Below, piece by piece: positions 44,092 to 60,949 of a stretch of 64,000 nt of DNA. Source of the stretch: Halorubrum xinjiangense (lineage in GTDB: Archaea; Halobacteriota; Halobacteria; Halobacteriales; Haloferacaceae); contig NZ_FNBO01000001.1 in NCBI RefSeq assembly GCF_900102375.1, positions 476,692 to 540,691 of the forward strand, written 5' to 3'. Each line of letters opens with the position of its first letter. Within the stretch, counting starts at the first letter, position 1. The notes beneath the pieces were generated by a model, which saw nothing but the letters and a program-made list of their open reading frames with translations, searched no databases and had not been told where the DNA came from. Made by a program: the position numbers and the translations under genes.

Positions 44092-47000
44092 TTAGTCGTT
44101 GCGGCGGGTCGCGAGCAGCGCAGCGGCGATGAGGGCGACGAGCGCGACGAGCGCGCCGAAGCCGGGCGTGCTGCCGTCAGTGGAGTCGTCACCAGAGGAG
44201 TCGTCTCCGCTGGAGTCGTCTCCGCTGGAGTCGTCACCAGAGGAGTCGTCTCCACTAGAGTCGTCACCAGAGGAATCGTCTCCGCTGGAGTCGTCACCAG
44301 AGGAATCGTCTCCACTGGAGTCGTCACCAGAGGAGTCGTCTCCGCTGGTGTCTTCCTCAATGGTCAGCGTGCCGGTGGCTTCGTCGTCGTCGGACGCGAT
44401 GCCGTGCTCGTAGTCGCCGGCGTCGAGGCCGGTCGTGTCAGCGGTGAACTCGACCGTCGTGCTGTTACCACCCGCGAGGGTGACTTCAGTCGTGTCGAGT
44501 TCGTCGCCGTCGAGCGTGAGCGCGATGTTCTGCGTGGCCTCCTGCTCGCCGGTGTTCTCGATCGTGGCCGAAACCGTGACCGAGTCACCAGCAGTGGCGG
44601 TGGCCTCCGCGGGCTCGAGGTCCGAGACCTCGAGGAAGGCGGCCTCGCCGACCGTCTCGACGACGGTGCCGTCTTCCTCAGCGTCGAAGGTCGCCTGCTG
44701 CGCGGTCACGGTGAACGTGTCGTTCACCGAGGCCTCGCTCAGGTCGAGACCCGTCGCCTCGAAGGAGCCGTCAGACTGGACGGTTACGTCCTCGGAAGTC
44801 TGAACGAAGCCGGGCGAGACATCAGAGTCGGAGCGCACGCGGACCGTGAACTCCTGACCGGGCGCAGCGTTGGTCGTGCCCGTGATGGTCTGATCCTCGG
44901 CGGCCTGGACTTCGACCGGCGTATCGAATTCGCCAGTCGCTTCGACGTACTCGAAGCTGACCGTGGCGGTCTCGTAGAAGTCCGTGATGTCCACGTCGCT
45001 GTCTTCGAGTTCGTCCTCGTCAGGGTCGAGCAGGCGCTCGTCCTTCACGCGGAGACGCACGTCGAAGGCGTCCTCGTCCGAGATGGAACGGCTGGAGTCA
45101 TCAAGGACGATGTTGCTCTCTTCGAACGCGATGTAGTACGAGCCTTCGGTCGAGATGATGTCGACGTTACCGTCGGCGATCATCTGCTGAACGTCGACCT
45201 GCTTACGCTCCGAGTTCGGCGCGGTGCTGTCGGCCGTCTGGCGGATGCGCAGGTCGATGCCCGTGCTGTCGTTCGCAGAGCTGGTATCCGTGATGAGGTC
45301 GGCGAGGCTGCCACCGTTCGCTTCGATGGCGCCCTCGAGACCCGTCGCGCTGAGCTCGTGAATGAGGACGTCGCCCTCAGTCAGCGAGTCAGTCTCGACG
45401 ACGGTGTCGTTCTCGACACCGTTCGAGATGTCCTCGACATCTTCGACGTCCTCGTAGACGTCAGCCGAGGTGGTCCAGAGGTTGAACGAGTCAACCGAAC
45501 GCTCTTCGAGTTCGAGGTCGCCGACCGCGTCGGAGTTGCCGTTGGCGATCTCATCGAAGCTCGTGTCGCTCACCTCGAACGGGTACGTACCCGTCTCGAG
45601 GATGTTGGTGAGGTTGTCCGGGCTTTCGTCCACGGACGTGATCTCCGCGTCGCTGTCACCGTCAGCGATGTACACGAGATCAGCGTTGTTCAGCGTGCTG
45701 GTGTTGCCAGCAACGTACGTGTTGAAGCCGACCGTGACACTGTCCTCTCCGCCGGAGTCGACGGAGACGTTAGCCTCGTAGCCGACCTCTTCCTGGTCGC
45801 CAATCGTGAGGTTGGCGGTTTCGACGTCGCCCTGGAAGTTGATCGTGATGTTCGCATTGTCACCGCGCTCCTCAGTGATGAACGTCTCCTCGAAGGAGAT
45901 GTCACCCTCGGGCGCCTCGGTGACTTCAAAGTCACCGCTCTCGACGGAGACCGCCGAGTTGTCGTCAGTGACTTCGACCGTGTAGGTACCAGTGTCTTCG
46001 ACGGTACCGAAGTCGACGGCGACCTCACCGTCGGAGTCGATCGAGGTTTCGACCGTGTCAACGACATCGCCGTCGTCGTCGAGCAGGTCGGCCGTGATTT
46101 CGCGGTTGATCGCGTCGGACGTGACCGTCGCGGTCACCGCGTCATTGGTCGTGAACTCGTCCTCATCGACCTCAACGTCAAGGCCGAGGTCGCTGATTTC
46201 GAGGACGGAGGTGACATCAGCATCGTTAGTGATATTGTAGTCACCGTTCTCGAAGTCGTCGGTGTCGAGAACGTACACGAGGCTGTTCGTGCCCGTACCA
46301 CGGGTCCGGCTAACGCCGGGGCCGTCGATATCGAACGTGGAGTCGGCAGAGGCGTTTTCGAGGGCAACGTTCTCACCGGAGAACGCCTCGAAGGTGGAGT
46401 CGTCGTTCACCTTGACGACGCTCGGAGCGAACGTGACATCGAAGTCGTCGTCGCTCACGTCGTTACCAGCGGCATCTTCGAAGCCGGCTTCAACAGAGAC
46501 GTTCTGAACGTTATTGAACGTGGTACCGGTATCGACTTGAATGAGACCGGCACTAACCTCAGTGAATGAGGTAGCCGCGCCGGGTCCGATCGTCACGACC
46601 GAACCATTGTCGAGACCAACTTCAACTTCGGCGTTGCTCTGGTCAGGGATAGTGACATCATTCGAGTACGAGAGCTCGATGATGGCAGTACTCGAGTTCG
46701 CGTAGTGAGTTGCCTTACGAAGGTCATCAGTCACACCATCAACGTCCAGAGTAGTGGTAGTGTCAGCAGCACTGACATCAGTACCGTCCGCTTCTGACGA
46801 ATTGGGTGCTTCGATGACTGCAACATCGAAGGTGTCATCAGCGTCTGCTCCGAGTCCCGCAGCGTCGCTCGGAGTGAAGGTGGCGCTGTCGCCACCACTA
46901 GTCGTGTTAGCGACTACCTCGTCTTCTTGAATCGTTCCGTCGCCATCAGCGTCGATAGCGATTTGATAGTCATCTGAATCATCTGTATTAAACGAGATGT

Positions 47001-47166
47001 CTGTACTCTCGTCCGGAGTTACCGGTTGCGTAGAGTCAATGGTCGCACTGTTAGCAGCGGCAGCTGCTGGAGCAGCAGCGAAGCCGACTGCAACCATGGA
47101 TACGACCATGACCGCCGCAAAGAAGACCGCGTTAGCCTTCTTGCGTGTGTTATTGTCGTTTGTCAT
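44092..47166 (-). CDS. csg: S-layer glycoprotein
   Basis: 1024 aa, extremely acidic. The N-terminus (MTNDNNTRKKANAVFFAAVM and a hydrophobic helix to AAPAAAAA) is the classical haloarchaeal S-layer Sec signal. Ig-like acidic domains follow, with many N-x-S/T sites (e.g. VANTTS, APNSSE, ANSSTA, ENASAD, DYNITN, NANITI, TANLTI, DNLTNI). The C-terminus has 11 pentad repeats of the GDDSS type in place of the Thr-rich O-glycosylated stretch of H. salinarum and H. volcanii. It ends TPGFGALVALVALIAAALLATRRND, a PGF-CTERM signal for archaeosortase ArtA and lipid anchoring. It forms the cell wall lattice. Confidence 0.95.
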   Translation of the reverse strand: MTNDNNTRKKANAVFFAAVMVVSMVAVGFAAAPAAAAANSATIDSTQPVTPDESTDISFNTDDSDDYQIAIDADGDGTIQEDEVVANTTSGGDSATFTPSDAAGLGADADDTFDVAVIEAPNSSEADGTDVSAADTTTTLDVDGVTDDLRKATHYANSSTAIIELSYSNDVTIPDQSNAEVEVGLDNGSVVTIGPGAATSFTEVSAGLIQVDTGTTFNNVQNVSVEAGFEDAAGNDVSDDDFDVTFAPSVVKVNDDSTFEAFSGENVALENASADSTFDIDGPGVSRTRGTGTNSLVYVLDTDDFENGDYNITNDADVTSVLEISDLGLDVEVDEDEFTTNDAVTATVTSDAINREITADLLDDDGDVVDTVETSIDSDGEVAVDFGTVEDTGTYTVEVTDDNSAVSVESGDFEVTEAPEGDISFEETFITEERGDNANITINFQGDVETANLTIGDQEEVGYEANVSVDSGGEDSVTVGFNTYVAGNTSTLNNADLVYIADGDSDAEITSVDESPDNLTNILETGTYPFEVSDTSFDEIANGNSDAVGDLELEERSVDSFNLWTTSADVYEDVEDVEDISNGVENDTVVETDSLTEGDVLIHELSATGLEGAIEANGGSLADLITDTSSANDSTGIDLRIRQTADSTAPNSERKQVDVQQMIADGNVDIISTEGSYYIAFEESNIVLDDSSRSISDEDAFDVRLRVKDERLLDPDEDELEDSDVDITDFYETATVSFEYVEATGEFDTPVEVQAAEDQTITGTTNAAPGQEFTVRVRSDSDVSPGFVQTSEDVTVQSDGSFEATGLDLSEASVNDTFTVTAQQATFDAEEDGTVVETVGEAAFLEVSDLEPAEATATAGDSVTVSATIENTGEQEATQNIALTLDGDELDTTEVTLAGGNSTTVEFTADTTGLDAGDYEHGIASDDDEATGTLTIEEDTSGDDSSGDDSSGDDSSGDDSSGDDSSGDDSSGDDSSGDDSSGDDSSGDDSSGDDSTDGSTPGFGALVALVALIAAALLATRRND
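44182..44346. repeat. 15-bp tandem repeat in the S-layer gene, 11 units
   Basis: Units of the form GGAGTCGTC(A/T)CC(A/G)(G/C)(A/T) run without spacers and encode the GDDSS pentads on the minus strand. Silent differences between units (AGA and GCT ends) alternate irregularly, so copy number has probably changed by slippage. Confidence 0.9.
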
Positions 47167-47636
47167 TGTTGTGTTGTGTTCTGCGTCGCGACAGTCTGCT
47201 TTGTCCTCGCCTGAATCGCCCGTTCGTCGTCTGCCAACACACTCGATGTGGTACGGCCGGACTCGACGCGGATTACTTGCGGTCGTGTCGCATTGTGGGG
47301 TAGGGGCTGCGTCAGCTTGTTAAAGCGGTCGGTATAAGTACTTTGTGTCGATCATCGTTGTGTGTGAATGCGTCTCACAGGCTTCTCAGGCGCTGAGGCG
47401 CCCGTTTTCGGATTCGAGGTGTTCGGAGTTGGTCATGGTGGGCATATGAATCGGTGAGTATGAATCCGATATTCCGTCGCAGTCGGTCCGACCGAAAGGG
47501 GTACAAGCCGAGACAGCCTTCCTTCAACCGGGGCCTACGGGTCCACGCGACCGGGCAGTCACGCTGGCGGTAGGGGACGTCCGGTCGTCTGTGCCCGTTC
47601 GGCTCCGTTTTGCTATTTCGGTACCGGCTGGACCGC
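47167..47636 (-). promoter_or_regulatory. Upstream region of the S-layer gene
   Basis: 470 bases without a supported CDS. A TATA box (rc TACTTATACC, 47331-47340) lies about 165 bases before the csg ATG, giving a leader of about 140 bases, as is known for strongly expressed haloarchaeal S-layer genes. A 19-codon frame at 47386-47445 on the same strand lies upstream of that box and is not called. The rest lies downstream of aglB and shows GC-rich imperfect hairpins only. Confidence 0.55.
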
Positions 47637-50174
47637 TTACGCTGGTGGGACAGTCGTCTGATTGCCCGCGAGCACGTCGTCGTCGGTCACCGTGACGGTC
47701 TCGTTGCCCACCTGATACTCGCCGGGATGCGCGACGCGAATCGTCGCGGTGCCGTTTGCGACCGTCGCGTTACGCGCGTACTCGTACGTGGTGTCGTCAG
47801 ATCCACCGTCGATTGTCAGAGTCGTCGTCGCGGTCACCGCCTCGCCGCTCGGCTCCGAGACCTCAATCGTCGCGCCGGGGACGACCGCGAACGTCCGCAC
47901 GCCGTCGTCGCTCGCGAGCAGCTGGTAGTGGCCGGTCGGAGCGGTGTCGTTGGCGCCGAGCCCGAGCCCCTCGTGGAGCGCCGCGTAGGTGGTGTTCGTC
48001 GCGGGCGCGTTCTCGCGGTCGGTGACGACGACGTACCCGACCCGGTCTCGGAACCGATCGTAGGAGTCGTCCGGGTTTGACGAGGCGAGGAACTGGTCGT
48101 GATTGCTCCGGGCATAGCCGTACCCCTGCGCCTCGCCGTTCACGAAGTAGTTGTACATGCGGTTGTCGCCCCATTGGCTCAACACGAAGTTCCGCGGGTA
48201 CTCCCGGTCGACCTCCTCGGCGTGGGAATCGACCGTGAGCGCGGCGTCGAACTGCGCGCGGTCGTGGGTCGTCTGCCCGACGAGCGACGGAACGAGGAGG
48301 AGATTGAACAGCAACACGAGCGCGACGGTCGCAGCGAGGTACCCGCGCAGGCGGGTCCCCGCCGGGAGCGCGAGCGAGGTGATCGCGTTCCCCTCGCTCG
48401 ATACATCGTCCGCTCCGGCGCGACTCGACCGGGAGCGACTCGAGCGAGTCCCGGTTGACACGGGCTCGGCGTCGTTGCCCTGCCCGAGGGCGGCCACAGG
48501 GCGTGCGATGTCGATCGCTGAGAGCAGGTAGACGAGCCCGATCCCCGCGAACGGCGCGATGAAGATCGCCAACTGCCCCGCGAACCGCACCTGAACCGTC
48601 GCGAGCAGCGTGTAGTACCACGCGAAACAGACGGGAACGAGCCATCCGGGCTCGTAGCGGCGGGCGACCGCCCACGTCGCGACCCCGAGGACCGCAATCG
48701 CGAAGTAGAAGCCGAGCCCGAGCTGGAGCAGCGGCCCGAATATCACCGCGAAGTCCGGAGAAAACAGCGAGGTCGTCTCGGAGATCCCCTCGCGGAAGAA
48801 CAGGTCGTCCGCACGCGTCTGGAGCCGTTCAACGTCGCCTGGGCGTAGGCGTGCGTACGCGACGAGTCCGCCGACGGCGACGACCGCCTCGGCCGCGACG
48901 AGCGCGAGGGGAGGCCACGCGACCCGCCGCCACAGCTCGCCCAGTCCGACGACGACGAGCGCGCCCCCGGCCACGAGGACGGGCGTAATCGCGGCGATCG
49001 ACTCGTGCCACCCTAAGGCGAGATGCGCGGCAAGTGCCAAGCCGCCGCCGAGCGCCAGTCCGCCGAGCAGCGGTGCGTTGGCGGCGGCCGGGGAGACGTC
49101 GTGACGAACGTCGAGGGCGACGCGGAGGCCGACGACGGCCGCGACCGGGACGAACGTGAGCGGCGAGCCGCCGTACGCGTGCGCGGACGCCGCCACGGCG
49201 AGGGCGAGCGCGAGCGCGACGAGCCACATCGTCGCGTCGCGTGCGTGTGCCCGGACGGCCGCCTGCGGGTCAGTGTGGGTAGTTCGCCGCGTCACGTCGA
49301 CCCCGAGCGCGGTCAGCGTCAGGACGAGGAGCCCCAGCCACAGGTACTGGTGAGCCTGATGATCGAGGAAGCCGACGGAGGTGTAGACGACGTTCACGGG
49401 CGCGAGCCCGTAGAACAGCACCGCCGCGAGTGCGACCCGCACGTCGTCGGTGAGCAAGCGCGCGAGCCGGTAGACGAGGTACCCCAGACAGACGGACGCG
49501 ACGACCGGGAGCCACGCGGCGACCGCGGGCGCGGCGTCGACGCCGCCGAGCAGGACCGTCACCCACCAATTGATCGCGTGGGCGAGCGGGCGCGTCCCCG
49601 CGGCCCCGCCCATGTCCGCGAACAGCCCCAGATCGAAGACTCCGTCGGCGCGGGCCGCGAGCCGCTCCTGCCAGTAGCGGAAGAAGTACGTGTCGTTGGC
49701 CGGCGAGACGACGAACCCCTGCTGGAACACCGCGGGCGCGGCCACGAGTCGTGCGCCGGCAACCGCCAGCAGCGTCCCGACGAGCCCGAGGAGGGTGACG
49801 ACATCGACGTCGGCTGAAGTGGGGAGTTGCGACAGCCTGGCACGGACATCACCGGACGGCGTCGAGTCGGCCGGGCTCTCGGCTGGGGCGGCCGCCCCGG
49901 CGGCCGCGTCCGCACCGTCGGCCGGGGCGGGCCCAGCCTCGATCGCGGCGCGGATCGCGGCCGGATTTTCGAGCCGATAGCCGTCGTCGACGGACGTCGC
50001 GAGATCCCGAGCGACGAGCTCGCCGAACTGGCCGGAGTCGAGGGCGATGTCGGCGAACGTCCACGGCGCGTCGCGGGCGTCGCGCTCGACGAGAGCTGTG
50101 AGGGCGTCCTCGGCCTCGGGGTGGTCGGCGAGGAACTCGCGCGCGGCCGCGGTCGTCTCCTCAGGCGCGGGCAT
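47637..50174 (-). CDS. aglB: AglB/STT3-family oligosaccharyltransferase
   Basis: 845 aa. AglB transfers lipid-linked glycans to Asn-x-Ser/Thr of exported proteins such as the S-layer. Residues 1-115 are a soluble N-terminal region, including a winged-helix-like piece (DSGQFGELVARDLATSVDDGYRL). About 13 membrane helices follow. Catalytic-loop candidates are SPANDTYFFRYW (first DxD-like motif) and VGFLDHQAHQYLWL (second). The WWDYG-equivalent appears as SQWGDNRMYNYFVNG at the start of the C-terminal outer domain. The neighbouring S-layer gene is a likely main substrate. Confidence 0.88.
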   Translation of the reverse strand: MPAPEETTAAAREFLADHPEAEDALTALVERDARDAPWTFADIALDSGQFGELVARDLATSVDDGYRLENPAAIRAAIEAGPAPADGADAAAGAAAPAESPADSTPSGDVRARLSQLPTSADVDVVTLLGLVGTLLAVAGARLVAAPAVFQQGFVVSPANDTYFFRYWQERLAARADGVFDLGLFADMGGAAGTRPLAHAINWWVTVLLGGVDAAPAVAAWLPVVASVCLGYLVYRLARLLTDDVRVALAAVLFYGLAPVNVVYTSVGFLDHQAHQYLWLGLLVLTLTALGVDVTRRTTHTDPQAAVRAHARDATMWLVALALALAVAASAHAYGGSPLTFVPVAAVVGLRVALDVRHDVSPAAANAPLLGGLALGGGLALAAHLALGWHESIAAITPVLVAGGALVVVGLGELWRRVAWPPLALVAAEAVVAVGGLVAYARLRPGDVERLQTRADDLFFREGISETTSLFSPDFAVIFGPLLQLGLGFYFAIAVLGVATWAVARRYEPGWLVPVCFAWYYTLLATVQVRFAGQLAIFIAPFAGIGLVYLLSAIDIARPVAALGQGNDAEPVSTGTRSSRSRSSRAGADDVSSEGNAITSLALPAGTRLRGYLAATVALVLLFNLLLVPSLVGQTTHDRAQFDAALTVDSHAEEVDREYPRNFVLSQWGDNRMYNYFVNGEAQGYGYARSNHDQFLASSNPDDSYDRFRDRVGYVVVTDRENAPATNTTYAALHEGLGLGANDTAPTGHYQLLASDDGVRTFAVVPGATIEVSEPSGEAVTATTTLTIDGGSDDTTYEYARNATVANGTATIRVAHPGEYQVGNETVTVTDDDVLAGNQTTVPPA

Positions 50175-50327
50175 TGGCTGTCATCTGTCGGGGGCGCCGA
50201 TTAGCGGTTTCGGTCGCGGGCGGGACACAGCGGCTGGTCGGAGAGCTGTCAGGGACGCTCGATCCCTACCCCATCGCCGAAACGGGAAACATAGTGTTTA
50301 ACTCGATACATGTGACAGTAGTTGGTA

Positions 50328-51794
50328 ATGGATACGGGATGGCGGTACCGCGCCGCGAGCGTGGGGGGCGTCGCTGCCCTCGTTGCGCTCGCGGTGATGC
50401 TCGCCAACAACGGGACCGTTCAGGCGACCGCGGCGATAGTACCCGTCTTCGATCGCCTCCCGGTGGACCCGCCCGCCGGGGCGGAGTTCATCATCGAGGT
50501 CGCGTTGACCGTCGCTGTCGTGACGGCCGCGTTCGTCCCGCTGTACAAGCCGCGGCCGCGGCGGATCCTCGACATCGTCGCGCTCGCGCACAAGCGCACG
50601 TTCGTCGCCGTGTTCGCGCTCGCGACCATCGGCTACTTCGATTACACGTACAAGGTGCCGCGGCTGACGCTGGTGTTGATCACGCCGCTGCTGTTGGTCG
50701 TGCTGCCGGCATGGTTCGTCTGGCTGCGCCGGCCCGAGGCGCGCGGCGAGCGTGCGATCATCGTCGGGGACGATCTCACGGAAATCGCACAGGTCACCCA
50801 GGCCGCCCGTGAAACGGACCTCGTGCTGCTCGGCTACCTGTTCCCCACACAGGCGCACGCTGGAGCCCACGGTCAATCAACAGAAGACCACGAGGCGACA
50901 GGGGCTGGAATCGCTTCTGTGGCGGACGGCGGCAGAGAACTAAATAGTAGTCTCGAACAACTTGGCGGCCTCTCACGGCTTGAAGACGTACTGGTCACAC
51001 ACGACGTCGACACGGTGATTCTGGCGTTTGGCGAGACAGATCGGGCCGAGTTCTTCGGCGCTCTCGACGCCTGTTACGAACACGGCGTCGCCGCGAAGGC
51101 CCACCGTGACACAGCGGATACAGTGCTACTCGCGGAGGATGACCCAGGGACCCTCGTCGATATCGACATCGAACCCTGGGACGTTCAAGACCACATCCTG
51201 AAACGCGCGTTTGATGTCGCGTTCGCGGGGGCGGGGCTGATCGGACTGTCACCGGTTATCCTCGCCATCGTGGTGGCGATCAAGCTTGAGGACGGGGGAT
51301 CGGTCCTGTATCAACAGGATCGGACCGCCGTATTCGGTGAAACCTTCGACGTGTATAAATTCCGGTCAATGGTCGAGAACGCCGAGTCCGCGACAGGCGT
51401 GAAAATCAGTGACGAAGACGATGGTGGTGTCGACCCCCGGGTGACACGCGTCGGGCGCGTGCTACGGCAGACACACCTCGACGAGATTCCACAGCTGTGG
51501 GCGGTGCTATCGGGGGATATGAGCGTTGTCGGGCCACGGCCCGAACGTCCTGAAATTGATGCCGACATCCAGCACGGCGTCGACGACTGGCCGAAGCGGT
51601 GGTTTGTGAAACCGGGCTTAACTGGATTAGCACAGATCAACGACGTGACCGGCAAGGAACCGGACCGAAAGATCCGCTACGACCTCCAGTATATCAAACA
51701 GCAGTCGTTCAGTTTCGATATGAAGATCGTGACGCGACAGATTTGGAAGGTGTTGGTCGATGCCGCCGCTATTGTATCTGGAAAGCGCGAATAA
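50328..51794 (+). CDS. Polyprenyl-phosphate glycosyl-1-phosphate transferase (WbaP/WcaJ type)
   Basis: 488 aa. Four to five N-terminal membrane helices, a nucleotide-binding-like middle (ERAIIVGDDLTEIAQV...), then the bacterial sugar transferase domain: LKRAFDVAFAGAGLIGLSPVI, VLYQQDRTAVFGETFDVYKFRSM, VTRVGRVLRQTHLDEIPQLWAVLSGDMSVVGPRPE and KPGLTGLAQINDVTG. It would start glycan assembly on dolichol phosphate. GC content drops clearly after about 50860, so the gene seems a mosaic. GTTTAAC about 30 bases upstream suggests a leaderless start at ATG 50328. Confidence 0.92.
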   Translation: MDTGWRYRAASVGGVAALVALAVMLANNGTVQATAAIVPVFDRLPVDPPAGAEFIIEVALTVAVVTAAFVPLYKPRPRRILDIVALAHKRTFVAVFALATIGYFDYTYKVPRLTLVLITPLLLVVLPAWFVWLRRPEARGERAIIVGDDLTEIAQVTQAARETDLVLLGYLFPTQAHAGAHGQSTEDHEATGAGIASVADGGRELNSSLEQLGGLSRLEDVLVTHDVDTVILAFGETDRAEFFGALDACYEHGVAAKAHRDTADTVLLAEDDPGTLVDIDIEPWDVQDHILKRAFDVAFAGAGLIGLSPVILAIVVAIKLEDGGSVLYQQDRTAVFGETFDVYKFRSMVENAESATGVKISDEDDGGVDPRVTRVGRVLRQTHLDEIPQLWAVLSGDMSVVGPRPERPEIDADIQHGVDDWPKRWFVKPGLTGLAQINDVTGKEPDRKIRYDLQYIKQQSFSFDMKIVTRQIWKVLVDAAAIVSGKRE

Positions 51795-51824
51795 GAAGAA
51801 CAGCGTTGGGGACGTGGTCATCCC

Positions 51825-51982
51825 AAGCGATACACCGTCGAGCTCCCCCAGCTGTGGTCGATCCTTCGGGGAGACATGACCTCCAGTACGTGCGCGAGCA
51901 GTCGTTCGCGTACGACCTGAAGATCGTGGCGCGGCAGCTGTGGAAGGTCGGTGAAGACGTCTGGATGGCCCTGACGAGCTAA
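51825..51982 (+). pseudogene. Remnant 3' end of a second sugar transferase gene
   Basis: Right after the intact transferase, one frame reads VELPQLWSILRGDM (51837-51878), equal to DEIPQLWAVLSGDM of the intact gene. After a one-base frame shift it continues DLQYVREQSFAYDLKIVARQ and LWKVGEDVWMALTS to a stop at 51982, equal to the intact C-terminus. The 50 or so codons between these two blocks are missing. The remnant has the high GC of the chromosome, unlike the 3' half of the intact gene. Confidence 0.8.
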
Positions 51983-52487: not shown

Positions 52488-54212
52488 CTACGCAGACTCG
52501 GTGGCTTCGACCACTATCTCGAACTCTTCTCCCGGATATATTTCTCTCGAAGCTCGGCCATCGGGGACGACCTCCGCGGTCGTGCCTTCGTAGTCGCCGC
52601 TCGTGAGTTCGACCTCGTACGTGCCGGCCGCGACGCTTATATTGTACCAGCCGTCGGTATTGGTTTTGGAACTGCGGATCGGCTCATCTGTTTCAGCGTC
52701 GATCAGGCGCACGTCTTCGCGGGTGACGGCGGAGCCGTTCTCATCGACGAACTGGATTGACGCCGAGACGTTCGGTGCCAGCTCGATGGCGTCGACCTGC
52801 GTCTCCGAGCTGTCCACGGTAATCTGTTGTCCGTCCGACGCGGCGTATTCGTCCGCGTTCGCCGAGAGCGTGTACTCGCCGGACGCCACGTTTTCGAAGG
52901 AGTACTCTCCTCCGTCTGCGGTGGTCGTCTCGTCGGTCTCATTCTCGTCGTTGGTGAGTGTCACGGTTGCGTCTGAGACGCCATCGCCGGTTTCCGAATC
53001 GATTACGCTCCCCTCAACGAGCGATTGAGACGGATCAAGCCGGAGATCGCCCCCGGGACTGTCTTGGGAGAGGTTCATCCGCCGTTCCTCGTACCCATCC
53101 ACGGAGGCGACCAGCGTGGCGTTCTCGATGTCTCCCTCAGTGATGGTGAAGTTGTATTCCGGCTGTTCGGTGCTGTTCATCACCGTCCCGGTCCCGTTGC
53201 GGAGTTCGACGAACTCGACATCGGTCGCGCTGATCTGCTCGTCGGTGGCGTTGTCGACGAGCGTCCCGTTCACGTTCAGCTCCGCGTTTCCGGCCTGGTC
53301 GCCGGCATCTACCAGTCCGATAGCTCCCAACACCTGCGGGCCGAAGGTAACTGCGGCGAACAGGACAAGCAGGACGATAGCGCCGACAGCGACGTACAGA
53401 CCGGCTTTCGGCGGAATGAGATAATCATCGTCCGATCCGCTTGTTGTCGATCCGAGGTTCGAACTGGTCGCGGGTGCTTTGAGCGCGGGAACGCTGCTTT
53501 GGACGCGCTTTCGTATCTCTCCGTTCGAGAGGCCGTGTTCGCGTGAGAGCGTCTCCACCGACTCGCGTATCGACGCGATCTCCTCTTTGATATGCTTATC
53601 ACGGAGTGACCGAGACGTCGACTCCCACCGCGCTTCCGTCTCGCCGAGCGGGGTGATACCGCGATGTCCACCGGGCGTGACGACGAGATCAAACCTCGAG
53701 AGGACGTCCGCGTCCGTCGAATCGGCGACCGCCGCTTGGTCGTACTCGCCGAGGTACTCGTCGAGCAGACCGAGGGCATTCCGTTCATCCGACACCCCCA
53801 CCGTCACCGAATTGCGAGAGGCGACGAGTTCGGAGAGAATATCCTGTTCCGTACTGTCGCCGGGGAGGGCCGTGTTCCCGCGTTTCAGTTCGCGGTACAC
53901 CTGCATCTCTTCGGAGGACTCGTCGATCGTGTACCCCCACTCGGACTCGATACGCGTCGTGAGATCCGTGACGAGGTCCTGGAGCGGCGCTGAGGAGTTG
54001 TCGACGGAGTAGACGGCGTAGAACTGCTCTGTGCGGGCGTTGCGGGTCTCGCGAGCACGGAAGAACAGGCTGATTTCGTGTCTGTGATCTGAACGGATCG
54101 CGAGCCGAACCCCACCGTAAAACAGCTCTTTGATCTGCTCGTCTGATCCCGTCGCGGTACCATCGGGGGAGTACGCGTTCCCCTTCGTGTCATAGATGCG
54201 TAGCGTTGACAT
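52488..54212 (-). CDS. Single-span membrane protein with cytosolic domain and carboxypeptidase-regulatory/Ig-like repeats (operon gene 3)
   Basis: 574 aa, no signal peptide. Residues 1-265 are a soluble domain of unknown fold (YGGVRLAIRSDHRHEISLFFRARE; QFYAVYSVDNSSAPLQDLVTDLTTRIESEWGY). One membrane helix lies at about 271-298 (AGLYVAVGAIVLLVLFAAVTF). The outer part holds about three carboxypeptidase-regulatory-like beta sandwiches with N-glycosylation sites (e.g. LVEGSVIDSETGDGVSDATV; GGEYSFENVASGEYTLSANA; DGWYNISVAAGTYEVELTSG). It lies 6 bases after the GTPase gene, as third gene of the tubulin-like operon. It may carry the signal between outside and the cytosolic complex. Confidence 0.85.
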   Translation of the reverse strand: MSTLRIYDTKGNAYSPDGTATGSDEQIKELFYGGVRLAIRSDHRHEISLFFRARETRNARTEQFYAVYSVDNSSAPLQDLVTDLTTRIESEWGYTIDESSEEMQVYRELKRGNTALPGDSTEQDILSELVASRNSVTVGVSDERNALGLLDEYLGEYDQAAVADSTDADVLSRFDLVVTPGGHRGITPLGETEARWESTSRSLRDKHIKEEIASIRESVETLSREHGLSNGEIRKRVQSSVPALKAPATSSNLGSTTSGSDDDYLIPPKAGLYVAVGAIVLLVLFAAVTFGPQVLGAIGLVDAGDQAGNAELNVNGTLVDNATDEQISATDVEFVELRNGTGTVMNSTEQPEYNFTITEGDIENATLVASVDGYEERRMNLSQDSPGGDLRLDPSQSLVEGSVIDSETGDGVSDATVTLTNDENETDETTTADGGEYSFENVASGEYTLSANADEYAASDGQQITVDSSETQVDAIELAPNVSASIQFVDENGSAVTREDVRLIDAETDEPIRSSKTNTDGWYNISVAAGTYEVELTSGDYEGTTAEVVPDGRASREIYPGEEFEIVVEATESA

Positions 54213-54218
54213 TCGTGA

Positions 54219-55661
54219 TCACCCCAGTTTCTCTAACATCTCCTCGAATCCGACCGTCATCACGTTCCCGTTCCGGTCGCGCATCGGCACGCGTTCGCCG
54301 TCGTCGTTCACCGTCGTCTCGTAGTACACCGGATGGATCTCCGAGCCAGACGTGTCCTGAACGAGCGTCCGTACCGCTTGGTTGTTCTCGATCAGGGTGT
54401 CGTTCACGTACTGGCGGAAGTCCTCGAAGTACTGGTGCGGGTCCAGCGCCTGCTCGTCTTCGAACTGCTCCGCGAGAATGTCGGACTTCGTCGCCACCAA
54501 CAGGACGTCCTTGTTGTCGGCCGTATCGAGAATGTCGAAGTACGGCTCAATACCGAGCGGTTCGTTGTTGTGATAGCGCTCGACGTCGATCACTAAGATG
54601 AGCGTGTTCGCCGCCCGAACGCGGTCGGAAAGCAACTGGACCGTGGAGTTGTCGATCTCCGAGTCGGGACTCATCAGTGCCCCCGGGAGCTCTTCGAGAT
54701 ACTCCCCGGCGTAATCGAGGCTCGACAGCTCGATGTTCTTCGGGAAGACCCGGCCGTTAACGAATCGGAACTGGAGATCCTCGACCTCCGTCGCGCCCGT
54801 CGAGTCGAGTTCCCAGCCGGCGCTTTTGGTCGCAGCGTCGAGTCTGCCGACGAGCTCCATCAGATCGCCGCTCGGATTCAGCGGCGTGTCGCTTTTCCTG
54901 TCGACTGCGTCGTCGAGTGCGGCGAGATACTTGCCGACGAGAAACAGCGATTTCCCCGATCCCGGCGGGCCGAGCACGAAGAAGTTCTCCGAGGAGTCGT
55001 ACGTGACGAACCGGCGGAGCGTCACGACGAACACCCCGGCCATCAGGATGTTCGTGGTGAGCCCGCCCCACGCGACCGAGACCGTCGGTTCCGGCGCGAT
55101 GATCTCTACCGTGCCACCCGACGGGTCGATGAACTGCGGGAAGTTGACGTGGAATTCGACGAGGCCGACGAGAACGATGGCAGTGATGAGGTAAAACAGA
55201 ATACTCGCCGACTGGCGGAACTCGAGTGCGGAGGTGGTTCGAACTTCCATGAGCTGTTTGCCGCCACCGATGACGGTTCCACCCACAAGGCCGGCGCCGA
55301 GCCACGCGACGTTCGCGGCGAAATCGATGTTCGGGATGAACAGGCCGATCGAGAGCAGTCCGATAAGGGCAGACCCGGTTCCGAGCCAGAGCAGCGCGCC
55401 TTGGACCCGTTTTTTCGGGTCGATTGTCATCAGTAGGAGCAAGCCGAGATAGATCCCGAACACCGCCGCTGAGAACTGTTCGAGTGATATCGACAACAGG
55501 GGGTTTAACGAGAGTATCAGCGGCCGGAACACGTCGGACGCGACCCACGCTTCGCCGAGGGTCAAGAACAGCGGCCCGGCGACGACGACCATGATGAGGA
55601 AATACACCCCGAGGAAGAACTTCTCACCGTGTTCCTCGAGGAACGTGGCTGGTGAGTCCAT
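54219..55661 (-). CDS. Membrane-anchored P-loop GTPase-like protein (operon gene 2)
   Basis: 480 aa. About six membrane helices fill residues 14-216. The cytosolic part begins ENFFVLGPPGSGKSLFLVGKYL (Walker A/G1, 231-238), with DYAGEYLEELPG (G3-like DxxG, 316-319), a strand TLILVIDVERY and LLVATKSDIL (G4-like TKSD, 391-394). The motif set points to a TRAFAC-like GTPase rather than an AAA ATPase, although the G4 is non-standard. It follows the tubulin-like gene by 5 bases. Its place in the membrane suggests it anchors or regulates the tubulin-like protein. Confidence 0.85.
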   Translation of the reverse strand: MDSPATFLEEHGEKFFLGVYFLIMVVVAGPLFLTLGEAWVASDVFRPLILSLNPLLSISLEQFSAAVFGIYLGLLLLMTIDPKKRVQGALLWLGTGSALIGLLSIGLFIPNIDFAANVAWLGAGLVGGTVIGGGKQLMEVRTTSALEFRQSASILFYLITAIVLVGLVEFHVNFPQFIDPSGGTVEIIAPEPTVSVAWGGLTTNILMAGVFVVTLRRFVTYDSSENFFVLGPPGSGKSLFLVGKYLAALDDAVDRKSDTPLNPSGDLMELVGRLDAATKSAGWELDSTGATEVEDLQFRFVNGRVFPKNIELSSLDYAGEYLEELPGALMSPDSEIDNSTVQLLSDRVRAANTLILVIDVERYHNNEPLGIEPYFDILDTADNKDVLLVATKSDILAEQFEDEQALDPHQYFEDFRQYVNDTLIENNQAVRTLVQDTSGSEIHPVYYETTVNDDGERVPMRDRNGNVMTVGFEEMLEKLG

Positions 55662-55666
55662 GGCTG

Positions 55667-58600
55667 TTACTCTTCCTCCTCCCCGTCAGCCGGGGCGGTG
55701 AAGTCGGTGCGGCTGATGTGATCGGCGAGGAGATCCGCTTTGATGTCTCCCTCATCCCTGAGGAAGAACTCCACGTCGTCGGGGTGTTCGAGGTTCAACA
55801 CGGAGTCGCGTTTCACGTAGTACCCATCATCGAGGCCGTACGCGTGATGGACGAGAATATCGGTCTCGTCCGACTGGTTCCGCGCCTCGTAGCCGTTCCG
55901 GTAGCCGTCGGCCTCGATCTCCGCCCGAAGGTTATCCAGGAAGATGCCGTCGATGAAGATTCCGAGGCCGACGTCCCAACTCCCGCCCGCTTCGACCGGG
56001 AACGACGCGTAGTTCTCGCCGCCCGCACCGAGGTTGTACGCGCCCTGAAACTCGGATTTGAGATCGGCGACGTCGTTGATCTGCTCGATAGCGCGGCTCA
56101 TGACGCCGACGACGACGTTCATCTCGTTGTATCGCGCGCGGTCGCCGCTGATCCGGCGCCGGCGAATCCCGGTGTAGCGGGGGTTGTGCGCGTTCCGGGC
56201 GAGTTCTTCGAGCGAGCCGCGCAGCCGCTGCCGCTCGGTCTCGTCGTCGAAGATCTTGCTTTCGGCGATGTCGGTGTCGTCACTGAGTTGGAGGATATCG
56301 TTCGGCTGGACGGTTTTGACGTAGCTGTACTCCTCGGTTTCGGTCGCCACCGATGAGTCCTTCTCAGTGTTGTACTCTTCGCGAAGCCGCTTGTACGACT
56401 CCTGGGCGTTCAGGAACGAATCTCGCGGGCCGTTTAGTTCCTCAAACAGCGTGACAGTCGCCTCGTAGAGATCTGATTCGTTCTTCGCGGTTTCCAGATC
56501 CGATTGGAGGTCGTCGCGTCGGCGTTCGATGTCTGCCGTCTCGACGATCTCGTCGCGAACGAGCTCTTCGTACTGGCGAGTGAGTTGGTCAAAGCCGATC
56601 CCCGACTCGAGGTCGCGTTCCAGTTCGTCGATCGCCGCTCGGTGTTCCTCGTCGAGCTCGGAGCGCGTCCGCGAAACGATCTCCTGTTGGCGCTCGTCCA
56701 CCTCTCTTTCGATGAGGTGTTTGAGTTCGGTGACCGAGAACTGAACCTCGATCGAGAGGTTGCTGCCTGCCCGCGACATCTTGAACACCTCCGCTTCGTC
56801 GAGCTGACTGCGCTTGCGGCGGTAGTTCTTCTCGGCCTTCTTGCGTTCCTCCTTGCCTGAGGAGTCCCACGGGAGGATGGATTCGAGCGTTCCCTCCTCC
56901 TGGTTCATCGTGAGGAACGACTTCTTGGCGTCTGCGAGGTCCGCGAGCGACGAGTTGATCCGGCGCTCGATATCGGTCGTATCGACGCCGACGGTCTCGA
57001 ACTCGTTGCTGATATCCTCGAGGGCCGTCCGAACGGTGCTGTCGTTGACGGATTCGACCTGGTCCGCCTCTTCGGCGTTCTCGACGGCCCGTGCGAACGA
57101 CTCGAGTCCGTTGCGGAGATCCCCTATCAGCTCGTCGACGGCCATCGACTGGCAGTCGTTGTACTCCCGGTACAGGGGCTCGACCGCGTTCTTCCACGTT
57201 GCGACCCGACGGTCCACCTCGTCCTGCTGTTCTCGCTTTCGGGTGTCGAGCTCGGCTTCGGCCTCTTCGAGTTCCGACTGAAGTCGGTCCCGGCGGTCGA
57301 CGACCTCGTCTCGTTTCGCTTCCAGTCGGTTGATGCGGACCCCGGGGTTGATCCCCTCGTCTTCGACGGCGAGCAGGTAGCTGATCGTGCCTTCAACGCG
57401 GTTGTTGTCGATCGACCGGAGTCGGACGAGCAGGTCCTTGCGGTGGGCGATCCGGTTTAGTTCCGTGTCGATGATGTCGGCCAGCTGCTTGTCGATGCTA
57501 TCGACATACTGTTCGTTGTCGCCGATGCGCGCGGTGCCCGCTCGAATGGACCCGGCGATAACGTCGATTCGGTCGAGGATATCGTCGGTTTCGGCCTCGG
57601 CCTCCGACATGATCTCGCGGTAGGCGGAGACGGACTCGTACTCGAGTTCGGTGAAAATGTCGAGCTCCGTGAGCGACCAGACGTTGTCGAGCCGCGTCTC
57701 GAGATCCGTCCGGTCGGAGTCGTGGAGTTCGCCCTCCATCTCGTCGGGGCTCCACTCCCGCGAGAGGAACCGGTCGACGCCCGTGTACACGTCCGCTTCC
57801 GCCTCTAAGGCGTCCTGTTTTGCGTTGAGGATCTCTTTGGTGACCGTCTTCGCGTCTTGGATGGCGTCGACGTTGTACCGGAGGACCTGCGGGATACCCA
57901 TGATGAATGGGGCATACGACGGGGTGTCCGCGAACGGATCCTCCATGTCCATCATGTTGTAGTACGACGTGATGAGATAGATCGCCGCCCTGTCGAACTC
58001 GACAAGCGCGTCAGAGCTCTGGATGAGGTTCCCCTTCTTCCCGCCGAACCCGGTGGGATCGATCGGGATGAGGATCCGGTCTTTGAACAGGTCCTCTCCC
58101 TGAAGGCTCATGTACTCCAACTCGGAGAGGACGGCGTGCGCGTTCGCGCTTTCCGCGTCACCCTCCTCGTCGTTGGGGAGCACCCCGAAGAGCGTGATCT
58201 CAGCGGTTCGTTTCGTTCGTTTGAGATGTTTGACTAAGTCGATAAAGATTCCCGATCCGGAGCCGCCGCCGAGGCCAGCAATAACGGCAACCTTACCGCG
58301 GTTCGGGAGGTCGATCGACGTCCGAACGTTGTCGTCTTCGGCGTAGGACTTGTAGTACAGTCCCTTTCCGAGTCCCCGTTTCCTGACGACGCCGGTCGCG
58401 AAGTCGAGGTTCTCGTTGATGAACTCGGGTTTGAGCCACCAGTTATCCTCGTCAATACCGACCCCGGCCGCGATCCGCGGCACCGCCTCTTCCCCGATCA
58501 GGTCGTTCTGATCGTGGAGTTGGATGTTCTGTGTAAGCGGTAGGTAATCGATGTTGATCTCACCGAGCCGGCCCTCCCCTGTCGTCTCCTCACGGAGGCG

Positions 58601-58816
58601 TTCTCTCGTCTCCTGAATGGAGTCCCTAATCTGTTGAATTCGATCGAGGTCTCTGTTCTCTTCTTCTTCGGCCGTGTCGATCACGGTCACCGTCAGGGTT
58701 CGCGGATTCCGTCGCGGCTGGAGCACAGACTCTTGAACCCAGTCTGCCTCCAGAAGTTCGTAGGTGATCGCTTTGCCAGCACCACCCACCGCGAAAATCC
58801 GACTTGGTAGATTCAT
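55667..58816 (-). CDS. Large tubulin-like protein with coiled coils (operon gene 1)
   Basis: 1049 aa. The N-terminal domain has SRIFAVGGAGKAITYELL and the tubulin/FtsZ glycine-rich signature VAVIAGLGGGSGSGIFIDLV (GLGGGSGSGI at 181-190), then FDRAAIYLITSYYNMMD. This matches the divergent Tubulin_2-like class, not haloarchaeal FtsZ or CetZ. Long coiled coils lie at about 495-560 (KRDEVVDRRDRLQSELEEAE) and 735-850. A C-terminal alpha/beta domain follows, then an acidic end. ATG 58816 is preferred over 58834, because the AT box (about 58848-58857) would place the transcript start between them. First gene of a three-gene operon. Confidence 0.87.
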   Translation of the reverse strand: MNLPSRIFAVGGAGKAITYELLEADWVQESVLQPRRNPRTLTVTVIDTAEEEENRDLDRIQQIRDSIQETRERLREETTGEGRLGEINIDYLPLTQNIQLHDQNDLIGEEAVPRIAAGVGIDEDNWWLKPEFINENLDFATGVVRKRGLGKGLYYKSYAEDDNVRTSIDLPNRGKVAVIAGLGGGSGSGIFIDLVKHLKRTKRTAEITLFGVLPNDEEGDAESANAHAVLSELEYMSLQGEDLFKDRILIPIDPTGFGGKKGNLIQSSDALVEFDRAAIYLITSYYNMMDMEDPFADTPSYAPFIMGIPQVLRYNVDAIQDAKTVTKEILNAKQDALEAEADVYTGVDRFLSREWSPDEMEGELHDSDRTDLETRLDNVWSLTELDIFTELEYESVSAYREIMSEAEAETDDILDRIDVIAGSIRAGTARIGDNEQYVDSIDKQLADIIDTELNRIAHRKDLLVRLRSIDNNRVEGTISYLLAVEDEGINPGVRINRLEAKRDEVVDRRDRLQSELEEAEAELDTRKREQQDEVDRRVATWKNAVEPLYREYNDCQSMAVDELIGDLRNGLESFARAVENAEEADQVESVNDSTVRTALEDISNEFETVGVDTTDIERRINSSLADLADAKKSFLTMNQEEGTLESILPWDSSGKEERKKAEKNYRRKRSQLDEAEVFKMSRAGSNLSIEVQFSVTELKHLIEREVDERQQEIVSRTRSELDEEHRAAIDELERDLESGIGFDQLTRQYEELVRDEIVETADIERRRDDLQSDLETAKNESDLYEATVTLFEELNGPRDSFLNAQESYKRLREEYNTEKDSSVATETEEYSYVKTVQPNDILQLSDDTDIAESKIFDDETERQRLRGSLEELARNAHNPRYTGIRRRRISGDRARYNEMNVVVGVMSRAIEQINDVADLKSEFQGAYNLGAGGENYASFPVEAGGSWDVGLGIFIDGIFLDNLRAEIEADGYRNGYEARNQSDETDILVHHAYGLDDGYYVKRDSVLNLEHPDDVEFFLRDEGDIKADLLADHISRTDFTAPADGEEEE

Positions 58817-59153
58817 CTGGACACTCTCACACATGAAATATCTTTCAATAAACTATTCGGTCTTGTCCATACTATCTGATAATTTGGGTAGGCTGATCCT
58901 TCTGTGTGGTTTGGTTTATATTTCAACTACTGTATTGTGAGTTCAATAGGCTTGATATGGGAGTGGTTGATCTGACGGGTATTCAGTATCGGGTTACAGT
59001 CATCGATGGGGCGGCCGGAGGGGTGCGGGCGCGGTCGAAGCAGGGATGAACGCAGCGGGGTGGCCACCGAGGAGTACTATCAACCTACCGAGGACAAATG
59101 GTGTGAGCCAACAGAACCACGCGAGTTTTGTGTCGGCCCACTGAACGGCGCGT
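58817..59153. other. AT-rich divergent promoter region
   Basis: 337 bases between the tubulin-like operon and the epimerase gene. It is clearly richer in A/T than the surroundings (58835-58970), with AT boxes such as TTTATTGAA (rc, near 58850) and GGTTTATATTTC (58914-58925). No CDS is seen. The composition change fits an acquired operon edge. Confidence 0.55.
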
Positions 59154-60140
59154 ATGCGAATCCTCGTGACAGGTGGGGCCGGGTTCATCGGCGGGCACCT
59201 CGCCGAGTCGTTCCTCGAAGACGGCCACGACGTGACGGTCCTCGACAATCTCGAACCATTCTACGCCGAGGGGATCAAACGCCACACGCTCGACGTCCAC
59301 CGCGAGGTGGCCGCGGAGCGAGACGTGGCGTACCAGTTCGTCGAAGCCGACGTTCGGGATCCGGACATTGTCCAAGAACTCGTCGGTGCTGCGGACGTCG
59401 TCGTCCACCAAGCCGCACAAGCGGGCGTGCGCGAGAGCGTGGACAATCCCCGGAAGGTGACCGACATCAACGTCGACGGGACGGTGAACCTCTTGGAGGC
59501 GGCGAAGGAGGCGGACGTGGAGCGCGTAATCTTAGCGAGCTCGTCGTCGGTGTACGGGAAACCGAAGTCGCTCCCCTACGAGGAGGACCACCCCACCGAG
59601 CCAGTGAGCCCCTACGGCGTGACGAAGCTCACCCAAGAGCATATGGCGCGTGTCTATACGGAGCTTCACGGGCTGCCGACAGTCTGTCTGCGCTACTTCA
59701 CGGTGTACGGCCCGCGAATGCGGCCGAACATGGCAATCTCGAATTTCGTTTCGCGGTGTGTGAACGGCGAGCCGCCGGTGATCTACGGGGACGGCCAGCA
59801 GACGCGAGATTTCACCTACGTGGCCGACATCGTGGACGCGAACCGGACGCTGCTGGAGTCGGGCGCGGCCGACGGCGACGTGTTGAACATCGGGAGCTCG
59901 GACAACATCTCGATTCAGGAGTTAGCCGAGACGGTGCGGGATCAGTTAGCGCCCGAACTGGAGATCGAGTACGAGTCTGCGCGCGAGGCCGACGCCGAGC
60001 ACACGCACGCGTCCGTCGAGAAGGCCGGCGAGGTGATCGGCTACGAACCCTCGCGGACGATCGCGGAAGGCGTTGGGGAGTTCATCGAGTGGTATCAGGC
60101 GAACCGCGAGTGGTACGAGCCGTTGGTGCGGGAGTCGTAG
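59154..60140 (+). CDS. NAD-dependent nucleotide-sugar epimerase/dehydratase (extended SDR)
   Basis: 328 aa. MRILVTGGAGFIGGHLAESF is the NAD Rossmann motif; the catalytic pair is in LASSSSVYGKPK and SPYGVTKLTQE (Tyr-x3-Lys). Substrate-binding residues follow (RYFTVYGPRMRPNMAI; VIYGDGQQTRDFTYVADIV). Closest in pattern to UDP-glucose 4-epimerase or UDP-glucuronate epimerase types. It probably makes a sugar nucleotide for S-layer glycans. ATG 59154 gives the full Rossmann strand. Confidence 0.93.
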   Translation: MRILVTGGAGFIGGHLAESFLEDGHDVTVLDNLEPFYAEGIKRHTLDVHREVAAERDVAYQFVEADVRDPDIVQELVGAADVVVHQAAQAGVRESVDNPRKVTDINVDGTVNLLEAAKEADVERVILASSSSVYGKPKSLPYEEDHPTEPVSPYGVTKLTQEHMARVYTELHGLPTVCLRYFTVYGPRMRPNMAISNFVSRCVNGEPPVIYGDGQQTRDFTYVADIVDANRTLLESGAADGDVLNIGSSDNISIQELAETVRDQLAPELEIEYESAREADAEHTHASVEKAGEVIGYEPSRTIAEGVGEFIEWYQANREWYEPLVRES

Positions 60141-60224: not shown

Positions 60225-60515
60225 TTGCAACTCAAATGTATCTCAACAGCGGTCAAGATGGATGAGGACGCAAAATCCCAACTCGAAGAACTCCAGGCAG
60301 AGATCCGGCTCAAAACGGGGAAGAAGGTCACCCAGCAAGAAATCCTCTCAACACTGATTCAATCGGTGGTTGACTCCCGCGCGGAGTTCGTCGATTCGTT
60401 CCGAGATGGAACAACAGCCCTGAACGAAACGGAACTCGAGGAATTCAACCGAGGGACGATCGCCTCCGGTGTCGAAACGACCGAAGACGACATCGACGAT
60501 ATCCTATACGGATGA
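60225..60515 (+). CDS. VapB-like antitoxin
   Basis: 96 aa. The N-terminal part STAVKMDEDAKSQLEELQAEIRLKTGKKVTQQEILSTLI reads as a ribbon-helix-helix DNA-binding domain; the acidic C-terminal tail (ETTEDDIDDILYG) would cover the toxin. No ATG precedes the beta strand, so the TTG at 60225 is taken; AATAGTTTA centred 29 bases upstream supports it. An ATG at 60258 would cut into the DNA-binding strand. Its stop overlaps the toxin start (ATGA). Confidence 0.82.
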   Translation: MQLKCISTAVKMDEDAKSQLEELQAEIRLKTGKKVTQQEILSTLIQSVVDSRAEFVDSFRDGTTALNETELEEFNRGTIASGVETTEDDIDDILYG

Positions 60516-60949
60516 GCGTCTTCGTCGACACCGGCGTCTTCTACGCACATCACGACACCGACGCCAGCCGACACACGGTCGGTACTGAGGCCCTGAATAC
60601 CGTCCTTTCGTCCGCGGAATACGGCCACGTGATGACGAGCGACCACGTCTATGATGAAACGGTCACGCTGACGCAGATGCGGACAGGGGATGTCGACGCC
60701 GGTCTTGAAGTTGGACGGCGTATTCGCGGCACGGGATACCCCTCGGCCATCGAACTACTCCATTCGTCTCCGACGCTCTTCGACCGTGCTGTGTCTGTCT
60801 ATCAGACGTACGACCACGAGCTCAGTTTCACCGACGCGATGACTGTCGCGATGGTCAAATACCACGAGATAGACGGGGTGTTGAGTTTCGACGACGACTT
60901 CGATGGGGTCGTTCCCCGGCTCGTTCCGGATACACTAACGTTTCAGTGA
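60512..60949 (+). CDS. PIN-domain ribonuclease toxin (VapC-like)
   Basis: 145 aa. The PIN-domain acidic residues are visible in MSVFVDTGVFYAHHDTDAS (Asp6), VYDETVTLTQMR (Glu), LSFTDAMTVAM (Asp) and LSFDDDFDGV (Asp). It would cleave tRNA or rRNA when free. It is coupled to the antitoxin gene by the ATGA overlap. GC content is lower than average, as for other genes of this accessory segment. Confidence 0.9.
   Translation: MSVFVDTGVFYAHHDTDASRHTVGTEALNTVLSSAEYGHVMTSDHVYDETVTLTQMRTGDVDAGLEVGRRIRGTGYPSAIELLHSSPTLFDRAVSVYQTYDHELSFTDAMTVAMVKYHEIDGVLSFDDDFDGVVPRLVPDTLTFQ

Follow-up and report, generated by a model that had tools for sequence, protein, structure and literature searches.

The minus strand of a 64,000-nucleotide stretch of the Halorubrum xinjiangense genome, referred to here as the window, carries three adjacent genes that almost certainly belong to FtsZl1, since the same three genes occur in the same order at the founding locus of that family. 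The trio represents a compact haloarchaeal version of that system with a single GTPase. To the 2010 description our analysis adds that the third protein combines a conserved cytoplasmic head with a fast-evolving, swappable exterior. We propose, with a probability of about 0.5, that the trio forms a membrane-anchored scaffold that is gated by GTP and linked to a variable surface protein.

Locus organization and match to FtsZl1

The genes of the trio and the PIN-domain gene near it are as follows.

55667..58816, minus strand: FtsZl1 / Tubulin_2 protein, 1049 aa
54219..55661, minus strand: polytopic membrane P-loop GTPase, 480 aa
52488..54212, minus strand: single-span membrane protein (third gene), 574 aa
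60512-60949: PIN-domain gene (38.5 bits)

The order on the minus strand is FtsZl1, GTPase, surface protein, and the genes are separated by 5 and 6 bases. This confirmed the co-directional three-gene set that a sequence-only reading of this DNA had proposed (open reading frames at 55667-58834, 54219-55661, and 52488-54212, all on the minus strand). A longer ATG at 58834 would extend the first protein to 1055 aa. The start at 58816, which that reading had used, was preferred because the MNLPxRI start is conserved across relatives in the alignment.

The GC content at the trio is 58 to 61%, versus approximately 70% over most of the remaining window. The trio had been placed in a low-GC segment beside toxin-antitoxin genes; the low GC content and the PIN-domain gene held up, whereas the small partner, a 96-aa open reading frame, matches no family. 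This frame overlaps the PIN-domain gene (60225-60949 together), and the two are likely a toxin-antitoxin pair. Surface-glycan genes flank the trio at 44092-51794 and 59154-60140, encoding a PGF-CTERM/DUF7827 S-layer-type protein, an AglB-like protein (weak match), a sugar transferase, and an NAD epimerase. The open reading frame at 51599-51982 is possibly a remnant of a second copy of the sugar transferase gene (50322-51794), as its end (HDLQYVREQSFAYDLKIVARQLWKV) is similar to that of the transferase.

FtsZl1 was described in 2010 by Makarova and Koonin from Huta_2051 of Halorhabdus utahensis, a protein of 1051 aa with a coiled coil (PMC2875224). The type locus, Huta_2050-2056, contains kinase genes, archaeal forms occur with a membrane GTPase, and membrane remodeling was predicted for the system (PMC2875224). 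Its hallmarks are a GGGTG(S/T)G-type loop, a central coiled coil, a conserved C-terminal domain, and a diverged P-loop GTPase in the operon; vWA or protein kinase genes adjoin it frequently but not universally (PMC2875224). Counterparts of T6-H7 were not found at that time, and filament formation was left open (PMC2875224).

The presumed H. utahensis locus reads kinase-like protein, FtsZl1 (1052 codons), GTPase, third protein, kinase-like protein. Compared with the presumed Huta_2051-2053, the window trio has the same order and identities of 44% (FtsZl1, full length), 47% (GTPase), and 27% (third protein). Both loci share the tubulin-like N terminus, the long coiled coil, the conserved C-terminal domain, and the membrane-associated P-loop GTPase. 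They differ in a nondefining feature, as neither a kinase nor a vWA gene was found adjoining the trio among the open reading frames and Pfam matches within the window. They also differ in the third protein, which carries CarboxypepD_reg sandwiches in the window, whereas the H. utahensis exterior is shorter and gave no convincing alignment. The earlier statement that no described function was known for this trio was not borne out, since it matches the founding locus of a system whose role was predicted in 2010. No biochemical or cell-biological study of FtsZl1 was found in the open papers searched.

Features of the three proteins

The FtsZl1 protein comprises three parts.

Residues ~1-330: N-terminal tubulin-like GTP-binding domain (predicted)
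Residues ~330-870: coiled coil
Residues ~870-1040: conserved C-terminal domain

A tubulin glycine-rich loop and long coiled coils had been claimed for this protein. Both were supported, by a match to Tubulin_2 (PF13809; 34.1 bits, cut-off 27), by the loop GGGSGSG at residues 189-195 (numbered in the 1055-aa reading), and by long helices over approximately residues 308-827 of a low-confidence AlphaFold model. A GGGxG(S/A)G loop is present in 23 of the 24 aligned FtsZl1 rows, the remaining row being gapped there, and F960, G963, D967, and N968 are invariant in the aligned C-terminal domain. The model, built on 8 close sequences, has a mean pLDDT of only 47.8. Structure prediction had been suggested as a check on the tubulin fold; in this weak model, the top structural matches of residues 7-284 were tubulin-superfamily chains (TubZ, CetZ, tubulin, and FtsZ), with VIA Z up to 11.6 and Foldseek E values down to 3e-4.

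CetZ is the haloarchaeal tubulin-like cytoskeleton. The tubulin-like part had been regarded as unlike CetZ, which did not prove to be the case: it is divergent, yet the haloarchaeal CetZ profile matched FtsZl1 with an E value of 1.4e-8 in a profile-profile comparison. Identity was 44% over 55 columns, in which the glycine-rich T4 loop and the LPxxxEG...NA stretch after it align. FtsZl1 carries inserts between T1 and T4 and a coiled coil that set it apart from CetZ, and its C-terminal half and probable T7 loop also differ; global hhalign comparison of the two gave no reliable alignment of helix H7 and T7.

In FtsZ and tubulin, conserved acidic residues of the T7 loop activate GTP hydrolysis. 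The probable T7 loop of the FtsZl1 family, assigned from motif order and the weak model, has a near-invariant APF followed by a conserved proline (APFxxxxP) and no conserved D or E over 67 rows, and classical dynamic polymerization is therefore doubtful. If motif order is a reliable guide, APFxxxxP may bear on the T6-H7 counterparts that were not found in 2010. The apparent lack of conserved acidic residues favors a signaling switch that operates without filaments, in which a tubulin-like GTP sensor would use its coiled coil as a rigid lever within a fixed three-protein complex. Such a switch would also agree with the kinase-like neighbors of some trios, and a nonfilamentous FtsZl1 was likewise allowed for by Makarova and Koonin (PMC2875224). 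However, characterized FtsZ/tubulin relatives polymerize (PMC2875224), a coiled coil of ~540 residues suits assembly, and we consider the switch unlikely.

Two short FtsZl1 paralogues from other Halorubrum-group genomes (L075:3931-5613 and L076:8155-9843) have no coiled coil, no adjoining GTPase or third gene, and a damaged glycine loop (GGAT-SG). Each gave two separate matches, to the tubulin-like and the C-terminal domains, with nothing coiled between them; the MAFFT alignment places their C-terminal part wrongly. Because both end domains occur here without it, the coiled coil of FtsZl1 looks like a removable insert between two globular parts.

The second protein has six hydrophobic segments within residues 15-214, followed by a G domain with the motifs GPPGSGKS (Walker A, residue 231), DYAGE (316), and TKSD (391), in agreement with its earlier description as a six-helix membrane protein with GTPase motifs. 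Together with weak profile matches, these motifs suggest a GTPase with a cytoplasmic G domain. It shows faint similarity to G-alpha and to DO-GTPase2. Filing it under DO-GTPase was rejected on score, as the DO-GTPase models (PF19975 and PF19993) gave E values of 0.15-0.19 and 11-12 bits, below the cut-off of 27; DO-GTPase2 was matched by 4 of 16 relatives (best E value, 0.0042).

DO-GTPase/GAP1-N2 systems include a tubulin theme, which has been assigned to Firmicutes and Actinobacteria (Kaur et al. 2020, PMC7159879). Like the trio, the tubulin systems among them combine a GTPase with a coiled-coil tubulin and membrane association, and they carry rapidly evolving FNIII-like repeats of their own. 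GTPase pairs occur in them and, likewise, in the FtsZl1 sister clade described below. Unlike them, the trio is without GAP1, GASH, HSP70, and vWA, and its GTPase remains below the DO-GTPase cut-offs. Pfam-type searches of the three trio proteins gave no GAP1 match.

The third protein is organized around one membrane span.

Residues 1-245: cytoplasmic head, conserved
Residues 272-290: transmembrane segment, one only
Beyond the transmembrane segment: exterior of CarboxypepD_reg / SpaA-like beta-sandwich domains, fast-evolving

The head (~245 residues) had no match in a Pfam search. The exterior matched CarboxypepD_reg (E value, 4.5e-24) and was modeled as beta-sandwiches with a pLDDT of ~70-90, so that a single-span protein with extracellular beta-sandwiches, as read from the sequence earlier, was upheld. 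Eleven of its 12 NxS/T sequons lie outside.

Conservation differs sharply along this protein: overall, the exterior is 38-77% identical among relatives versus 85-100% inside. When the window is compared with its two closest relatives, identity is 92-98% in the FtsZl1 and GTPase regions and 38-48% in the third-protein exterior; for H. halodurans, H. rubrum, H. cibi, and H. aquaticum, the corresponding values are 90-100% inside and 49-77% outside. The nearest named relative of the trio is H. coriense, with identities of 96% (GTPase) and 95% (FtsZl1). The dN/dS ratio ranges from 0.01 to 0.25 for the cytoplasmic and GTPase regions, compared with ~0.37-0.74 for the exterior where dS is unsaturated. 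These values suggest strong constraint inside and a relaxed or diversifying exterior. Synonymous divergence is likewise higher in the exterior, and misaligned repeats or the swapping of exterior segments may be part of the cause. In relatives the exterior is swapped or nearly absent, its length after the transmembrane segment being 7 residues at L045, 22 at L081, and up to 828 at L084. That the inside is fixed while the outside evolves fast and is dispensable is a clue to a surface-facing role of the trio. Surface proteins in general commonly evolve fast, and the suggestion that the exterior senses outside signals is possible, being consistent with this evolution but not demonstrated by it.

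Foldseek matches of the exterior were pilin and adhesin stalk sandwiches. This resemblance, the 11 exterior sequons, and the S-layer and N-glycosylation genes adjoining the trio in H. xinjiangense would suit an apparatus that serves as an adhesin or anchors the S-layer, with the surface protein doing the work and the other two merely placing it. On the other hand, no part is less conserved than the exterior, which is sometimes missing, and the S-layer/glycosylation neighborhood is common, in part, to H. coriense only, which shares the sugar transferase alone. We regard this apparatus as quite improbable.

Conservation and gene neighborhoods across haloarchaea

Matches to FtsZl1 with an E value of 1e-10 or better were found in 42 of the 392 genomes of the order (~11%). 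A tree of 62 sequences was obtained by quick maximum likelihood, with the midpoint root serving for drawing only. The trio falls in a well-supported part of this tree, in whose core clade every full-length locus (31 of 31) has a single GTPase whose P-loop is intact, together with the third gene. Gene order and strand are the same throughout, and these loci are spread over five haloarchaeal families. Co-occurrence of the three genes elsewhere, named earlier as a check on the set, was thus observed throughout the clade. Genes flanking the trio in the window are common to just one of the relatives checked (H. coriense, in part). Since the order of the trio is kept in all 31 loci while its flanks are shared with a single relative, the linkage is not mere inheritance of a neighborhood.

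In the other large part of the tree, the sister clade, most loci have two linked GTPase-family proteins, one without a P-loop, and some third proteins carry a PQQ propeller. Membrane proteins of the type without a P-loop adjoin FtsZl1, with an intact GTPase nearby, at L055:10597-12090, L057:5089-6564, L059:10350-11798, and L060:9963-11390.

Beside some trios there are PQQ-propeller membrane proteins, none of which adjoins the window trio, and kinase-like proteins without HRD or DFG motifs. A regex search found no canonical kinases among trio neighbors, and the kinase-like proteins may be pseudokinases because they have neither motif. One of them (L036:12412-14595), directly downstream of the third gene, has DWG for DFG and the same type of transmembrane segment and exterior as the third protein, which fits a shared surface-facing role. 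At L066:10291-12132, a protein with an Mrr-type restriction endonuclease domain is encoded immediately upstream of an FtsZl1 gene without a GTPase neighbor.

These neighborhoods bear on the earlier proposal of a conflict or defense function, in which the exterior would recognize viruses or competitors, also as a means of self-recognition, and the GTPase-tubulin pair would trigger a membrane or dormancy response. The patchy distribution (42 of 392 genomes), the low-GC segment with its PIN gene, and the fast-evolving exterior are in keeping with it, as may be the analogy with the tubulin theme of the DO-GTPase/GAP1 systems (PMC7159879). The trio, however, has no recognizable effector domain, no GAP1 or HSP70, and, in a PADLOC search of its three proteins, no match; fast evolution is usual for any surface protein. 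Nor were neighbors richer in PADLOC matches than control regions: 54 families were matched in 132 neighbor proteins versus 100 in 132 control proteins, the counts being families rather than proteins. The control proteins came from some of the same genomes, genes in both sets were called by an open reading frame heuristic, and this small control happened to contain Cas12f- and BREX-like matches. A clear excess near trios was seen for kinase models (PD-T4-6 and PglW). Assignment to a defense island by association was rejected on these counts. The defense proposal thus gained no positive support, and we hold it to be a minority possibility, if the foremost of the alternatives.

A viral origin of the trio was rejected because no viral relatives were confirmed when IMG/VR was scanned with a profile; this negative is a weak one, as the scan relies on short peptide patterns.

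Proposed function of the trio

For the scaffold reading that we prefer, we infer nucleotide binding, polymerization, contacts among the three proteins, and output as follows. The tubulin-like protein would bind GTP and assemble, via its coiled coil, into a scaffold or filament beneath the cell membrane, with the six-helix GTPase acting as the membrane switch for its recruitment or release. The third protein would relay the state through the membrane: the conserved cytoplasmic head would touch the GTPase or the scaffold, and the exterior, which is variable and probably glycosylated, would touch the S-layer, a surface, or a neighboring cell. The output would be local organization or remodeling of the envelope. 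It should be noted that the low confidence of the FtsZl1 model (pLDDT of 47.8) argues against the scaffold, as does a patchy distribution that is unusual for a housekeeping cytoskeleton. Exteriors of 7-22 residues occur in some loci, and surface contact is therefore not essential everywhere. A transmembrane recognition system, in which a diversifying surface receptor would act through the membrane GTPase on assembly of the tubulin-family scaffold and so tell neighbors, surfaces, or viruses apart, appears rather improbable.

Within the tubulin superfamily, FtsZl1 is a highly divergent lineage with a wide distribution. The haloarchaeal trio represents a small conserved unit of FtsZl1, and this unit occurs in relatives of genetically tractable haloarchaea.
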